DNA from: Chitinophagaceae bacterium | GTDB taxonomy: Bacteria > Bacteroidota > Bacteroidia > Cytophagales > JASGCU01 | Assembly (NCBI GenBank): GCA_030053935.1 | Contig: JASGCU010000017.1 | Coordinates: 1-33,424, forward strand | DNA: 33,424 bases | Direction: 5' to 3' | Shown here: piece after piece, positions 4,639-13,487 of the stretch | How positions within the stretch are numbered: the first letter of the stretch is position 1 | How the letters are laid out: each line of letters begins with the position of its first letter | The notes under the pieces: model-generated | The model's input: the letters and a program-made list of their open reading frames with translations, nothing else | Databases searched by the model: none | Told to the model about the DNA's origin: nothing | Translations under genes and position numbers: made by a program

Positions 4639-7600
4639 TTAGCGGTATATAAGCACAGTGCCTGTTATATTTTCTGTATTTAATGTTCTGTCACTCTGCA
4701 CACAATCAAAAATATAGTAGTATACTCCTTGGTCTAATGGTGTTCCGTTTCCATTCAGAGTTCCATCCCAATCGTTTTTATATCCTTGTTTTTGATATAC
4801 AATTTTTCCTCTTCTATCAAAAATAATAAGGGTGCATGTTTGATTAAATTCTACATTATCCAAAATCCATAGGTCATCAAATCCGTCTCCATTGGGAGAA
4901 AAAGAGGAGTGAAAATATTTAGGAGAGGGGTCATTGTTGGTAAGATGTCCTGGTCTTGGTTCTTTATAAGGAATTATTTTTATACTTTTAGTAGCTTCTT
5001 GTTGGCATCCGTAGAGTGCATCGAATGCGTTTACTGTTATAGATTTTATGAGTGTATCGGTATTTAAAAAATCATAAGATTGGTAAGAAGCTTTGTATCT
5101 TATTTGATGTATTGGATCTGTTTTTATTTGAAATAATTTTAATTGTGCTGAATCTTTCCATTGTATAGGATATGTTTTATTTATATTTTCGATTGTTATT
5201 ACGACGGTATCATATTCGTTTACTATATTTTTTGAAAGAATGATTTGAGGAGTATTTTTTGGATATTCTCGGATTTTAATAGGAGTAATAGATTGGCATT
5301 GTGCTACGTCTGTTGTTAGGATTTTATATAATCCTGAGTCGGATACGGATAATGTTTTTTTATAGCTAATAATTTGTGTGGTATCATTGTCTTTTATCCA
5401 AATAAAGTTTTGGTATTCTTTAGTGATGCCATTTAGTTGTTCTTCTATTGTTAGAGCAGTATCTAATTCTATTATTTCGGTAGTTTCTCTACATTTTATA
5501 CCTATTATTGCATTATTTTCTATATCTGATATATCTTTTATTCTTTGCGTAAATTTTATTTTATTTACAACTGGTTCGGTTATTATCCGAGTAGTTTGTG
5601 TTTCAGAGTAACAATCTTTTACTTCGTTGTATCCTACTTCTACTTTAATATTTTTTTGTTGTACATCTCTGTATGTGTATTCAAGATTTGGAGTTATAAT
5701 ACTTGTATCCAAAAATTCATATTCTGGGTACCATTTGTAACTGAGGGTAAGTTTTTGAGTTTGTATACCTGAGGTATCTATGCTTTCAGGGGATACAGAA
5801 AATATTAAGGGGAGGTCTTTACATATTTTTGTATTTGTAGAATCGGGTAATAATTCCTCATCTTTTAGTTGTATGTGAATATTTGATGGGAGTAAAACAG
5901 GTTTATTCCGAAATATTATACTTCGAGAAGGGGATATATAACTACAATTGCGAGTAGACGCAGTAGATGTTTCGGATAGTTTTAGATAATATACTCCATT
6001 TTCTGTTACGGGGAGTGTATTTCCTCCATTAGAATCCACAAATATATCTTGCCCTTCTTCTTCGTTATCCTTATACCATTCATACTTATATCCTGGGTAA
6101 TAAGGAGCTCTAATAGTGTCTGTATTTCCTGCACAAGCATTAGAATTTCCAATATTGGGACTAATTTTGGGAAAAGATATGAGAGATGTTTTTATTTCTA
6201 ATACAGGACTTTGGCATCCATCTGTATTTATATAACTAAAGTAATATGTTCCTGCTTTATTTATGTTAAAGGGCTGTATAACAAATACTTTTTGTGATAT
6301 GGTAGATGCTTGTTGATTTTCTTCGGGTAATAAACCATCGTATGTTGCGGGAGTTGTCCATAAGTAATCTTTTATCGTTGAAGTAAAATTTGTTTGGGTT
6401 GGATCTTGAACCTTAATAACGAGTATCAATTGTTCGCCATCGCACTCACGTAAATTTTCTGGGGAAGTAGTTAATGTAGGAGCAGGAACAGATGTCGCAT
6501 CTTTTACATTTACGATAACGTTATTGGAAGAATCTACGCATCTATTAGTAGATACAATTACTTTTACGAGAAAAGTTTTTGCTGTATTTGATGGTATAAT
6601 AAATGTAGATGATGTGTCTCTAGGGTTAAGGGTTCTTGTGTTATTTGTATTTGTAATAACCCATTGGTATCTGTGTCCAATACTTGGAGTAGCATTTAAT
6701 TCTACTGTAGACCCTTTACATATAGTTATAGTATCTATTCCATTTGCTTTTGGATGTAATATCTTGGGTTTCAGACAATTATAGTTTGGAATAGTTATAA
6801 CACTATTACTATCCAGCCCTGTAGCTATTATATCGGGTTTCCCATCTCTATTGACATCTCCTATTTTTATATTTTTTGTATGTTGCCCTATATTTTCTAA
6901 TTCTAATACAGAAAAATCAGTTGAAGCAATTTCATTTGATGTGTAATTATTGATAATGATGCTGAGTGATTTATTGCTACCAATATAACCCGAAGTGATT
7001 ATATCTAATTTTTTATCCCCGTTTATATCTCCTAAATCTAATCCCCATGGATTACTTGGAATAGGTACCTTAATAGTAGAAAAAGTGAGATTCCTTCTAT
7101 TTTTCAATATATTGATATTCTTAGAGACGGAAGTAACAGAGTTCTCTGTAAATATGATGTCATTATAGTTATCATTATCTATATCTCCTACTATCAGATT
7201 CGTTACGTTACTGGTAGGTATAGTAATTTTATTTTGTGTATTAAATTTTATATTTCCGGGGGAGCTTTCATTCAGTATTATATGTACATCGTTACTATTT
7301 TTGGTAGAGAAGACGATATCCGGAAATAGATCATTATTCATGTCTTTTATTTCTAAAGAATATAAAGGTTCTTCATCTGTTTCTATACTTATAGGGGGAA
7401 GAAAAGAATATGTATAAATATTACTTTGGTTTTTAAATATTACTATAAATGTTTCAGGTATAATGGTAGCGATAACATCGGGTTTTCCATCTTTATCTAT
7501 ATCTTCTACAGCAATTTTTTGAGATGTTTTTCCGTCTTTGGTTCTTGCTAATGGGATAGATATAGTTTCAATAATGGGTATAGGATTTAATTGTATAGTA

Positions 7601-8325
7601 CCTCCGACTGATTCATTTCTAATAATTCTAATATAACGTCCTGGGGTAGGTTGTGCAGGTATACTGATGACCAATTCTGGTTTTGTATCTCCATTTATAT
7701 CTTTACAAATGATATGGTCAGTGCTATAGACAATATCTATTTGTTGAAAAAGAGAAAAAGAAGTATGCTCAGCACCGTTAGATTCATTTTTGAATATATC
7801 TATAGTTCTATTATTATGCGTCACAGCAATATCTTCTTTCCCATCATTATTAAAATCACATAAGCAGAAATCTTCTATTTTTTTTTCTGGTGGGATATTT
7901 AATAAGAATTTTTTTTTATTGTTTGGACTTATTTTTTCCATTTGGAAAGGACTACCACTATAGCTGGGAAAAAATATTTCCGAACTTTCTCCTATAAGAT
8001 TATTTCTACCATTATATACTGTGATATTTCCATGTGTGGCGTTGCCAGGAACTTTCACACGAATAAGGTTTTCAGAAGTAGAAATAACCTCTGCTACTGC
8101 ATCACGAAAAGTCACCTTTGCATGCTTAGTAGAATCAGGAAAGTTTAATCCTATCAAAGAAATTATTGTTCCCGGGGCAGAATGAGATTCGCTGATTTTA
8201 TTAATAATAGGGGCTTTTTGTGTACCCTGTGCTTCTACAAGAGGAGTAGCAAGTATCGTTGTGAGAGAAAAAAACAGAATATTCTTTATCTGTAGTTGCA
8301 TAAAAGGTTTTATTTTATTTTTCAT
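4639..8325 (-). CDS. Large secreted adhesin-like protein with T9SS type B sorting domain
   Basis: A 1228-aa exported protein. Order: signal peptide (about 1-33), an IPT/TIG-like Ig domain (38-118), seven FG-GAP/VCBS-type calcium-binding-like repeats between about 155 and 510 (for example FNNDGKED, DIDKDGKPD, GDVNRDGKPD), then Ig/PKD-like repeats with paired cysteines (about 520-1125), and a C-terminal domain (1140-1228) with SFSPNGDGFDDLW, FDRRGKIVY, NDWDGT and GVYYYIF. That last domain is the gliding-motility type B signal (CHU large-protein type) which sends proteins through the type IX secretion system to the surface. The gene begins 9 bases after a PorP/SprF-family gene, the usual pairing. 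A role in adhesion or gliding is inferred; no enzyme motif is visible. Confidence 0.9.
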   Translation of the reverse strand: MKNKIKPFMQLQIKNILFFSLTTILATPLVEAQGTQKAPIINKISESHSAPGTIISLIGLNFPDSTKHAKVTFRDAVAEVISTSENLIRVKVPGNATHGNITVYNGRNNLIGESSEIFFPSYSGSPFQMEKISPNNKKKFLLNIPPEKKIEDFCLCDFNNDGKEDIAVTHNNRTIDIFKNESNGAEHTSFSLFQQIDIVYSTDHIICKDINGDTKPELVISIPAQPTPGRYIRIIRNESVGGTIQLNPIPIIETISIPLARTKDGKTSQKIAVEDIDKDGKPDVIATIIPETFIVIFKNQSNIYTYSFLPPISIETDEEPLYSLEIKDMNNDLFPDIVFSTKNSNDVHIILNESSPGNIKFNTQNKITIPTSNVTNLIVGDIDNDNYNDIIFTENSVTSVSKNINILKNRRNLTFSTIKVPIPSNPWGLDLGDINGDKKLDIITSGYIGSNKSLSIIINNYTSNEIASTDFSVLELENIGQHTKNIKIGDVNRDGKPDIIATGLDSNSVITIPNYNCLKPKILHPKANGIDTITICKGSTVELNATPSIGHRYQWVITNTNNTRTLNPRDTSSTFIIPSNTAKTFLVKVIVSTNRCVDSSNNVIVNVKDATSVPAPTLTTSPENLRECDGEQLILVIKVQDPTQTNFTSTIKDYLWTTPATYDGLLPEENQQASTISQKVFVIQPFNINKAGTYYFSYINTDGCQSPVLEIKTSLISFPKISPNIGNSNACAGNTDTIRAPYYPGYKYEWYKDNEEEGQDIFVDSNGGNTLPVTENGVYYLKLSETSTASTRNCSYISPSRSIIFRNKPVLLPSNIHIQLKDEELLPDSTNTKICKDLPLIFSVSPESIDTSGIQTQKLTLSYKWYPEYEFLDTSIITPNLEYTYRDVQQKNIKVEVGYNEVKDCYSETQTTRIITEPVVNKIKFTQRIKDISDIENNAIIGIKCRETTEIIELDTALTIEEQLNGITKEYQNFIWIKDNDTTQIISYKKTLSVSDSGLYKILTTDVAQCQSITPIKIREYPKNTPQIILSKNIVNEYDTVVITIENINKTYPIQWKDSAQLKLFQIKTDPIHQIRYKASYQSYDFLNTDTLIKSITVNAFDALYGCQQEATKSIKIIPYKEPRPGHLTNNDPSPKYFHSSFSPNGDGFDDLWILDNVEFNQTCTLIIFDRRGKIVYQKQGYKNDWDGTLNGNGTPLDQGVYYYIFDCVQSDRTLNTENITGTVLIYR

Positions 8326-8334
8326 AGTTTAAAA

Positions 8335-10119
8335 TCATTGAACGGATAGAATAATAAGTTTTTTAAAGTATTTGTTTTTACTATATTTTTGTTTTTCTTG
8401 CATTACTTCTTCTTTATTATTTGATTCGAAAAGAAAAGTATGATATACGTTGGCTTGCCTATCAAATCCTATCTCTGGTAGAAAACCCATGTTAGATAAC
8501 ACGTCGGCATACTTCTGTGCTTCATTAAATGTTTTAGAAGATCCTACGACTAAGTAATTTCCCTCTTCCATGGTTAATAAATTATTCTCGGGATTAGCAT
8601 TTGCAGGTTCTTCGTTTTGTTTTACAGCATTTTCGGAAGAATTACCTACAGAAAGAACCCATGCTTTTCTAAAATTGGGCTTCCTTTGAAGTATTTTCAT
8701 TTCGTTGGTTGCATCTGAAAGATTTTGAGAAACAAACATATACACATAATAGAGGTTCTTTGCAGGAATATGCCCGATATCCGGTAAAAAACCTTGGTTT
8801 GATAAAGTATTCTCAAATCCTTGAGCAGCATTAAAAGAGGAAAAAGATCCTACTATTACATAATGGCCAGGATCCATATCTAGTATGTTTCCATTTCTTT
8901 CTGTTTCTTGAGGAACTATTTTTGGTAGATTAGGTTTTGTTATGGCAATTGGTTTTGTGATTACAACAGGAGTGGTATCTTCAGGAACAGTGGGAGTAGT
9001 GGTTTTTACAGTAAGAATGGGTTTGGGAACGGTTGAGGTAGTAGTGGAAATCTTTTTGATAGGTGGTTTTGGGACAGTAGCAACCGTTGTTTTTATTGGT
9101 TTCACACGAGTAACAGCTACGTTTTCAGAAAGAGTATCTGAATCATGTTTACTCTGTCCTATAAATCCCTTGCTATCACGTTTTCTGCTTCCTATATGTA
9201 TCCCAATATGTATCTCATGGCTCCCACCGGTTTTTAATTCAGACGAAGGAAAATCATAAGCATATCCAATAGCATATCTATGGGCAAATTTTATTCCCGC
9301 TAATAACACAAATCCAGCGTTTTGTCTATAAGAAGCGCCCACCCAGACTAAATGTTTTATATGAAAGATATTGGTAATTTCGTATTGGTTTGCCGCAAAA
9401 TTCGACTTACTAAATCTATACAGGGCGTGTGGCTCCCAAACCAATATATCCCTCACTAATATTTGCCTGTAGTTTGCCTTGAGTAATATATTATCTAAAG
9501 AATGGAACTTTACTTTCTCAAAAGTTTGAGTATTTATATTATCATGGTTGATAATATTCGGAATAGAAACTCCTATATTAAAATTATTGATGTGATAATT
9601 GATGCCAAAGGAGCCCAGCATATAAAAATTATTATATAAAGGAACAAGATTCGCCGCTCGAGGGTCTCTTGTGTTTAATGCTTTTTCGTCAATATACGAT
9701 GTGCCCACCCCTAAGGAAAGCCCAACTCGGATATAATGTCGAAAACTATTGAGAATTATCAAATAAGAACCTGCTACTTTCAAATAATTATCAGTAAGAG
9801 GTCCTTGAATGTCAGTAGCCACCTCTCCGCCGATGCTCAGTGGGGTATGCCCAACGGGAGAGTGAGCAATAAAATGAGCATAGTAAGGAGCGCCATTAAA
9901 CCCCACCCACTGCTGTCTATATGTTAGATAAGCGGCGAGATGACCTTCAACTCCCGCATAAGCCGGATTATAAAGGTAAGGATTTATAAAATATTGACTA
10001 AAAACAGGTGGCTGCTGTGCAAAACCTTTTGATAATAAAAACAACCAAAACAAGAGGAATATAAGATATTTTTTCATTCGCTTTTGAGTAAATGGAGTGG
10101 ATGGTATTTTTTTTGGCAT
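8335..10119 (-). CDS. PorP/SprF-family outer membrane protein fused to two SPOR-like domains
   Basis: A 594-aa protein. Residues about 15-35 are a signal peptide; 36-312 match the PorP/SprF family, seen in PVFSQYFINPYLYNPAYAG and YLTYRQQWVGF, with a predicted 14-strand-like barrel. Residues 313-410 are a Thr/Pro/Lys-rich linker. Two similar C-terminal units (416-491 and 518-593) each open with a 'GHY/NYLVVGS...F..A' strand-helix pattern and include GFLP(D/E)IG, which looks like SPOR peptidoglycan-binding domains. PorP/SprF proteins help T9SS substrates cross or attach to the outer membrane; SPOR domains bind denuded glycan strands. ATG at 10077 (MKKYLIFLLF) gives a more normal signal peptide than the first ATG at 10119. 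It leads the operon with the type B adhesin 9 bases downstream. Confidence 0.88.
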   Translation of the reverse strand: MPKKIPSTPFTQKRMKKYLIFLLFWLFLLSKGFAQQPPVFSQYFINPYLYNPAYAGVEGHLAAYLTYRQQWVGFNGAPYYAHFIAHSPVGHTPLSIGGEVATDIQGPLTDNYLKVAGSYLIILNSFRHYIRVGLSLGVGTSYIDEKALNTRDPRAANLVPLYNNFYMLGSFGINYHINNFNIGVSIPNIINHDNINTQTFEKVKFHSLDNILLKANYRQILVRDILVWEPHALYRFSKSNFAANQYEITNIFHIKHLVWVGASYRQNAGFVLLAGIKFAHRYAIGYAYDFPSSELKTGGSHEIHIGIHIGSRKRDSKGFIGQSKHDSDTLSENVAVTRVKPIKTTVATVPKPPIKKISTTTSTVPKPILTVKTTTPTVPEDTTPVVITKPIAITKPNLPKIVPQETERNGNILDMDPGHYVIVGSFSSFNAAQGFENTLSNQGFLPDIGHIPAKNLYYVYMFVSQNLSDATNEMKILQRKPNFRKAWVLSVGNSSENAVKQNEEPANANPENNLLTMEEGNYLVVGSSKTFNEAQKYADVLSNMGFLPEIGFDRQANVYHTFLFESNNKEEVMQEKQKYSKNKYFKKLIILSVQ

Positions 10120-12333: not shown

Positions 12334-13395
12334 TTATATGTTCTTTTTTTTCGTTACAATTTTCAAGGAATAGCCAATATAAGGGATAGGATATTCTAAA
12401 AAAGATGTTTCCATTCCTACTACCTTTACGCCAAAGTCAAAAGCATGATTTTTTTTCCCATATCTGGCACCTAATGAAAATGTATTAAAACTACCAAGAG
12501 TGGTAAGAGAAGAAAAGGCATTTTCTGCTATAATAGAAGTATTGGGTGTTATAGATAATGATCCCGATAGGGAAACAAAAGGGTATTCATACATTCTAAA
12601 CCCGGAATAAGTTCTGTACTCCGTATTCGCTCCTATGGATACAGATATATTTGAACGTTCATTTCCATAAGTAATTGTTCCATACCCAATCAGAGAAAAA
12701 CTATTGATGATAAAAGGAGTATAAAATCCCCATACTCCTCCTCCTACGTAGAGATTTTTTGCTATTGGAAAACTAAATTGAGGGTTTATATACAAAAAAC
12801 CATATCCAAAAATGAAAGGAAGGGGAATAAAAAAAGTTCCTACTCCCATGGAAACATTTTGGTTTATTCTAAAATGGAATGCATTAGCAAAAATAAGATT
12901 ATTTTGATAATACATTTCTCCTTCTTTGAGCGGAATAAGTGATTTTGCATAACAATAGTAGATATTTTTTTGTTCATTTACCACAAGCTCTTTCGTAAGA
13001 TTAGAAAGTTTTACAGGTTGGACGCTCATTAATTGAGATATTTTGAGAATCGTTTTACCTTTTAGATTATCTAAAAAAGAAATTTCATCTTTGTCTAGTT
13101 TTAGAAAATATCCTTGAAATGTTTTTCCATTATTTGTTTTAAAGATACACATTGCATTGGGGTATACTCGGGTTACTTCTTCTATATTGGAGGGGGAAAT
13201 TTCTATTTGTTTTATAATCATATCTGAAAAAATCATTTTTTCTTCTGTTTTTTCTAAAAATGTTCCAAAGAGTTCCATTTTATTTTTGAGTACTATAAAG
13301 TATACTCCTGAATCTATTCCATTTGCTTGAGAATAACCTTGATAATTGCAGTAAAATACGAGTAATGTAAAAACTATATGTATTTTTTTCTTCAT
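12334..13395 (-). CDS. Probable outer-membrane beta-barrel protein
   Basis: I take ATG at 13395 as the start because it opens a clean signal peptide (MKKKIHIVFTLLVFYCNYQG, cut near YSQ). The frame stays open to 13485, but that extension is hydrophobic, not signal-like, and would overlap the candidate promoter. The 353-aa protein has a strand-rich N-terminal third (LKNKMELFGTFLEK, a type seen in Bacteroidota proteins that sense or bind surface ligands) and a C-terminal half of alternating strands rich in Gly, Tyr and Phe (VGGGVWGFYTPFIINSFSLIG), consistent with a barrel. No catalytic motif is seen. It heads the operon with the MlaE permease, which would fit an envelope role; function is unassigned. 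Confidence 0.7.
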   Translation of the reverse strand: MKKKIHIVFTLLVFYCNYQGYSQANGIDSGVYFIVLKNKMELFGTFLEKTEEKMIFSDMIIKQIEISPSNIEEVTRVYPNAMCIFKTNNGKTFQGYFLKLDKDEISFLDNLKGKTILKISQLMSVQPVKLSNLTKELVVNEQKNIYYCYAKSLIPLKEGEMYYQNNLIFANAFHFRINQNVSMGVGTFFIPLPFIFGYGFLYINPQFSFPIAKNLYVGGGVWGFYTPFIINSFSLIGYGTITYGNERSNISVSIGANTEYRTYSGFRMYEYPFVSLSGSLSITPNTSIIAENAFSSLTTLGSFNTFSLGARYGKKNHAFDFGVKVVGMETSFLEYPIPYIGYSLKIVTKKKNI

Positions 13396-13487
13396 GAGTG
13401 TATGAAATGATACTATAAAATAAGTTATTTTCCAAAAATGCATTGTAAAAAAAGGTACAATAACATAAAAAGCATAAAAAAACAATA

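Follow-up and report, generated by a model that had tools for sequence, protein, structure and literature searches.

A PorP/SprF barrel with two C-terminal SPOR-fold domains as a candidate self-anchored carrier of T9SS type B cargo

Introduction

The window analyzed here, a whole stretch of 33,424 nucleotides from a Chitinophagaceae bacterium, encodes a PorP/SprF barrel (P0001) that continues through a linker into two SPOR-fold domains and is followed by a gene for a protein with a T9SS type B sorting domain. We favor, with moderate confidence, the reading that P0001 is a type B carrier with its own wall anchor instead of PorE, and that it holds the downstream cargo static.

Related systems are described as given in the available portions of the papers cited. 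In Porphyromonas gingivalis, the barrel PorP holds the type B protein PG1035 and is tied to peptidoglycan via the lipoprotein PorE (PMC9143113). Static cargo has been proposed to be held by PorP plus PorE tied to the wall, and moving cargo by the carrier alone (PMC9143113, PMC12618676). P0001 resembles the PorP-PorE-PG1035 system in combining a PorP-type barrel, a type B CTD protein and a (here putative) wall-binding domain (PMC9143113, PMC7192894), but there an OmpA-type domain is carried on the separate PorE, whereas in P0001 a doubled SPOR is carried on the barrel's own C-terminus.

The SprF-SprB pair of Flavobacterium johnsoniae is similar in that a PorP-like carrier is encoded beside a dedicated type B cargo and has a periplasmic C-tail that decides its attachment (PMC12618676, PMC12635249). 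Because the SprF C-tail is the part linking to the GldK track (PMC12635249), the tail can be regarded as the part that determines where a carrier is attached, and by analogy it is this part that is replaced in P0001. The SprF tail joins the moving track through a Cys-X-Cys motif, whereas P0001 has no cysteine at all and its tail is made of SPOR domains. The order of genes also differs, being cargo then carrier in the F. johnsoniae pairs (PMC12618676) and carrier then cargo in the window. No paper on a SPOR- or OmpA-fused PorP was found in the portions of the open-licence literature that were available, and database architectures may already list the fusion. What is new here is the single-chain SPOR version; a PorP carrier with a wall tether is already known as a kind.

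Materials and Methods

Loci were chosen as fused by long open frames or a SPOR match and as unfused by short frames, and never by their neighbors. The resulting main set contained 111 SPOR-tailed PorP genes (mostly from the order of the window), 7 OmpA-tailed genes and 56 unfused genes. Note that some contigs duplicate the same DNA, such that the 111 genes represent 104 distinct barrels, with 103 in the tree after a length filter. Nine fetched regions without a PorP were left out of all counts, and genes fetched later in a phylum-wide search are outside the 111. Two long-tailed PorPs, both reaching a contig end and without a SPOR or OmpA match, were kept apart as “long”.

The SPOR-tail profile was built from 66 tails from other genomes, with both window rows excluded. 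Homologs of the cargo were searched with the sorting domain (CTD) excluded from the query. A PorE-like gene was counted as a neighbor if it was no more than two genes away and had the same orientation.

Results

P0001 is encoded on the minus strand by a 594-codon reading frame with no internal stops (Table 1). The original prediction described a PorP/SprF protein with a Thr/Pro/Lys-rich linker and two similar SPOR-like units that share the motifs NQGFLPDIG and NMGFLPEIG, and this description was borne out in each part. Both motifs are present in the translation. Of the 105 linker residues (aa 310-414), 19 are Thr, 13 Pro and 13 Lys, and pLDDT in this region is ∼40-50. The full AlphaFold2 model, based on an alignment of 65 sequences (mean pLDDT 80.9, pTM 0.60), consists of a 14-strand barrel at aa 61-309, the disordered linker and two βαββαβ domains. 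The N-terminal hydrophobic helix in this model suggests that the first 34 residues are likely a signal peptide.

Table 1. Coordinates of P0001, its presumed cargo and selected proteins at other loci. Positions without a locus prefix refer to the window.
Feature	Location	Strand	Basis
PorP/SprF-SPOR-SPOR fusion gene P0001, 594 aa	8335..10119	(-)	ORF
N-terminal region, aa 1-34, with hydrophobic helix aa 13-28	10018..10119	(-)	AlphaFold2 model
PorP_SprF barrel, aa 33-306, 14 predicted strands	9202..10023	(-)	Pfam and model
Thr/Pro/Lys-rich low-confidence linker, aa 310-414	8878..9192	(-)	Composition and model
SPOR domain 1 (SPOR1), aa 415-491	8647..8877	(-)	Pfam, own profile, model
SPOR domain 2 (SPOR2), diverged copy, aa 517-594	8338..8571	(-)	Own profile, model; alone below Pfam cut-off
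Presumed cargo, 1228 aa, with TIG, FG-GAP repeats, Ig_7 and CHU_C type B sorting domain	4639..8325	(-)	Pfam/NCBIfam
CHU_C / T9SS type B C-terminal sorting domain of cargo	4690..4908	(-)	Pfam/NCBIfam
PorP with two SPOR matches, adjoining CHU_C gene, other order	L302:8569-10821
PorP with two SPOR matches, adjoining CHU_C gene, other order	L313:7074-9185
PorP with two SPOR matches, adjoining CHU_C gene, other order	L301:9239-11362
PorE-like protein with PD40, CarboxypepD_reg, OmpA and N-terminal SPOR	L319:6887-9673	(+)	SPOR 25.8 bits, passes Pfam
PorE-like protein with PD40, OmpA, CarboxypepD_reg-like and N-terminal SPOR-like domain	L305:8791-11346	(+)	SPOR 16.2 bits, fails Pfam

Assignment of the barrel is supported by matches to PF11751 (PorP_SprF; aa 33-306, 185.7 bits against a cut-off of 22.3, E 1.6e-54) and to the NCBIfam PorP family TIGR03519 (185.4 bits against a cut-off of 90.55). 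Among solved structures, the barrel model aligned with FadL (3pf1_A, Z 24.1), with 8gl6_F (Z 23.9, 267 residues aligned), which we take to be PorV, and with 6h3i_F (Z 23.7), the latter two being chains of solved T9SS complexes. The model therefore has the FadL/PorV-like 14-strand form of the PorP/SprF family. By analogy with that family, P0001 is expected to export type B cargo from SprA and to retain it at the surface. In a tree of 167 barrels, the barrel closest to that of P0001 is from Imperialibacter (58% identity).

The original prediction called for a profile search and a structure prediction of the C-terminal region, and these returned a SPOR match and a SPOR fold, respectively. SPOR1 matches Pfam PF05036 at aa 418-488 (E 1.3e-6, 29.1 bits, cut-off 21). 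SPOR2 alone falls below the Pfam cut-off (12.9 bits, E 0.15), as it does in a search of its own genome (12.3 bits, E 0.473). The SPOR-tail profile scored 82.8 bits at aa 415-491 and 60.1 bits at aa 517-594, while the best of 1000 shuffled versions of aa 410-594 reached 8.1 bits. Alignment of the two units to each other gave a BLOSUM62 score of 152, as compared with a mean of 25 (s.d. 4.8, maximum 53) for 2000 shuffles. Chance or artifact as the origin of the fusion was rejected on the basis of these shuffle controls and of homologs with the same layout.

When modeled alone, SPOR2 adopts the canonical βαββαβ fold with a pLDDT of 95.5. Foldseek returned nothing for this model at E 0.001 or better, the top match being CwlC at 3.5e-3. 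Upon re-alignment of the Foldseek matches, 6ozd (exported protein) came first (Z 9.9), followed by CwlC (7.5), RlpA (7.0 and 6.8), DedD (6.8) and DamX (5.4), after which scores dropped to 4.6; SPOR structures thus occupy five of the six top rows. A sequence search of the PDB with P0001 or with SPOR1 alone gave no matches, and a PDB profile search gave only weak ones (CwlC, E 0.00074; FtsN, E 0.0096) mixed with unrelated proteins. P0001 shares the βαββαβ SPOR fold with CwlC, RlpA, DedD, DamX and FtsN, but those five act as lytic enzymes or in division, whereas P0001 is an outer-membrane barrel and is without the glutamine that contacts glycan.

This glutamine lies in the VQxGSF strand of studied SPOR domains, where it touches the glycan with help from a basic patch, and it is a preference rather than an absolute rule (available sections of PMC6895207). 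P0001 shows the Pfam match (SPOR1) and the fold of the SPOR family without the VQxGSF glutamine. With the column assigned via the VQxGSF motif, glutamine is present in none of 68 aligned tail rows, and V, I, S or M is found instead. It is also missing from all 11 other SPOR domains inspected in these genomes, including that of the window genome's other SPOR protein, so its absence seems to be a trait of the lineage rather than of the fusion. Due to this absence, neither wall binding nor a preference for denuded glycan can be transferred from E. coli or Pseudomonas. Neither SPOR1 nor SPOR2 has an arginine in the β3 strand. The end strand WVLSV, common to most tails, is kept in SPOR1, and its tryptophan is lost in SPOR2, so this copy may be weaker or altered. 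We regard the tail of P0001 as SPOR-fold domains with putative peptidoglycan binding.

The fusion was also looked for in related genomes, as had been suggested, and was found in 111 SPOR-tailed genes. When P0001 was searched against 58 relatives, with long frames followed up, at least 15 had a tailed PorP (nine SPOR, six OmpA). A scan of named genome contigs yielded 80 loci, and of the 82 PorP genes at these loci 69 are SPOR-tailed, the genera including Imperialibacter, Ekhidna, Marinoscillum, Reichenbachiella, Fulvivirga and Chryseotalea. In other orders of the phylum a PorP-SPOR gene was present in 15 of 20 fetched regions, including L301. Within the order, 119 of 390 genomes have a match to the SPOR-tail profile, and within the phylum 95 of 395 do; any SPOR protein, fused or not, counts in these tallies. 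A scan of genome contigs with a single protein gave 43 pattern matches and no relatives.

In 7 PorPs, the place of the SPOR tail is occupied by an OmpA-type tail. On the barrel tree, six changes are needed for the SPOR label and three for OmpA, at least two of each falling on well-supported branches, and wall-binding tails thus seem to have been gained or lost more than once. That the fusion is unique to the window genome was rejected, since the same layout is found in many related genomes. Uniqueness of the double SPOR was likewise rejected: P0001 is alone in this respect among the 111 main-set genes, but three more cases occur in other orders (G682, G565 and G503). Doubling has happened more than once, given the two-SPOR PorPs at L302, L313 and L301 (Table 1), and it is the only rare part of an otherwise widespread fusion.

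The fusion of the nearest relative (L178:6055-8901, plus strand) is 948 residues long. Its linker has a stretch of ∼300 residues with the pattern W.YVSEN.GAPI.R...EEG.TL.R.NAQGN, repeated twice, and shorter forms are seen at L052, L108 and L121.

The presumed cargo gene starts 9 bp past the end of the fusion gene on the same strand. Its product ends in a CHU_C / Bac_Flav_CTERM match, which is the type B CTD with which PorP/SprF carriers pair, and we infer that this protein is the cargo of P0001. The fetched loci contain 65 cargo homologs including that of the window, 62 of which align over at least 500 residues. A homolog lies directly downstream of 64 of the 111 SPOR-fused PorP genes (59 of the 104 distinct barrels) and directly upstream of none. 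Across the 80 named loci, no homolog turned up for any of the window's other genes between 350 and 13485, and conservation is thus confined to the carrier-cargo pair. The module label changes eight times on the barrel tree. A same-strand CHU_C neighbor accompanies 91 of the 111 SPOR-fused PorPs; most of those outside the module are preceded by an unrelated CHU_C gene, and 12, some of them at contig ends, lack both the module cargo and a neighboring CHU_C gene. At one module locus (L222:5992-7014), the PorP has no SPOR tail and ends after 41 residues, which reflects either loss or a MAG error.

Two other open reading frames of the window, both on the minus strand, are a 383-aa frame at 12334-13485 with no match in either Pfam or NCBIfam and a 695-aa frame at 350-2437 with sub-cut-off matches only.

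If the tail replaces PorE, fused PorPs are expected to be without a neighboring PorE-like gene. Such a neighbor was found for 18 of 56 unfused PorPs, for none of the 111 SPOR-fused PorPs and for none of the 7 OmpA-fused ones. In a subset of this count, the values were 0/49 for fused and 16/45 for unfused genes (Fisher p 1.4e-6, calculated with genes that are related by descent). Ancestry-corrected comparison provided only three supported independent pairs, and fusion occurred with PorE in no random pairing; shared descent may thus account for the pattern. Note also that 38 of the 56 unfused PorPs likewise are without an adjacent PorE-like gene. P0001 itself contains none of the PorE-type domains (TPR, β-propeller, CarboxypepD_reg, OmpA C-terminus), and it resembles PorE in anchoring role at most.

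Other combinations of these domains were encountered. L319, a flavobacterial-type locus from another order, has a CHU_C gene and a plain PorP, followed by a PorE that bears an additional SPOR domain at its N-terminus; L305 encodes a similar PorE-like protein (Table 1). Proteins of about 380-435 aa with a SPOR-like domain near the N-terminus are encoded at L110, L111, L113, L117, L118 and L119, and the same type is found at L090-L093, L097 and L275. Those scanned, from L111 and L119, have OmpA at the C-terminus and hence two wall-binding folds per chain. There are several copies per genome, some in tandem (L118, L119), in fetched regions without a PorP.

The window genome, an assembly of 156 contigs, encodes SprA and GldK above cut-offs and has ten CHU_C matches, nine of which are above the cut-off. 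P0001 is the sole fused one of its five PorPs. A PorP on contig C19 immediately precedes the GldK gene, and a PorP on contig C49 is two genes away from a PorE-like PD40 plus OmpA protein. With the latter and the fused P0001, the genome appears, judging from its gene content, to carry both the separate PorP/PorE arrangement and the fused one.

The Cys-X-Cys track motif is present in none of the tails (0/111 SPOR-fused, 0/7 OmpA-fused and 0/55 unfused), and it is therefore uninformative in this sample. Any cysteine in the tail is seen in 15 of 55 unfused PorPs. Two plain PorPs that share a genome (L048:5393-6415 and L049:7548-8477) each have a single near-C-terminal cysteine (LLCPVPFIF and TLCPSYF), which resembles the cysteine tails through which SprF or PorG is joined to the GldK track.

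Discussion

We propose that the barrel of P0001, embedded in the outer membrane, would receive the 1228-aa cargo from the SprA translocon through the cargo's type B CTD and then retain it on the cell surface. The even number of strands would place the C-terminal tail in the periplasm, where the flexible linker of ∼100 residues would bear two SPOR domains gripping peptidoglycan; it is this placement of linker and SPOR domains that would give the carrier a wall anchor of its own. One chain would thereby do the job of PorP and a separate PorE, and the cargo would be static and would not travel on gliding tracks. The original prediction held that such a barrel would tie a T9SS surface apparatus to the cell wall. 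A tether has gained indirect support from the OmpA-type tails in the same place of other PorPs and from the lack of PorE-like genes beside fused PorPs, but the item most likely to be tied is the single downstream cargo rather than the whole apparatus.

Alternatively, the SPOR domains could direct the carrier and its cargo to division sites and new poles instead of providing a general hold. The SPOR domains examined in other bacteria bind glycan that is free of stem peptides, a form enriched at the division septum (available sections of PMC6895207), and this together with the predicted SPOR fold of both units would suit this use, and two copies would raise avidity. We nonetheless consider such targeting unlikely, since the conserved glutamine is absent. 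Moreover, OmpA tails, for which no preference for septa is known, sit in the same place of other PorPs.

It is doubtful, in our view, that the domains have lost wall binding and now dock to a protein such as a T9SS or gliding component. RNP-like folds are frequently reused for protein contacts, and the lost glutamine, the missing β3 arginine in both units and the divergence of SPOR2 below the Pfam cut-off could all be understood in this way. However, OmpA tails in the equivalent position and the exclusion of PorE point to the wall, and another SPOR protein of the window genome is likewise without the glutamine. It is very improbable that P0001 is a normal PorP whose tail is incidental or in decay, or that it results from an assembly or frame artifact: SPOR2 is weak in Pfam and the genome is split into 156 contigs, but tails are conserved in 111 genes over many genomes (many from named strain assemblies), and P0001 is a single open frame with two domains predicted at high confidence.

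A broader idea, to which we give little credence at present, is that the PorP/SprF tail serves as a swappable address code. A cysteine would send the carrier to the moving track, PorE or OmpA to the wall and SPOR to division-site glycan, and the doubled SPOR of the window would specify septa or new poles. If this were true, Bacteroidota could pattern their secreted surface proteins in space.

To return to the favored reading, in which P0001 anchors itself and its cargo to the wall, wall-binding tails that belong to two unrelated folds and occupy equivalent positions, with no PorE seen beside them, provide independent comparative support for the proposal that static cargo is tethered. Tailed carriers reduce that proposal to a question about a single gene, in which the tail would decide whether the cargo moves. 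Such carriers further hint at a simple rule, read from sequence, for guessing which of a genome's T9SS surface proteins are static and which may be mobile.
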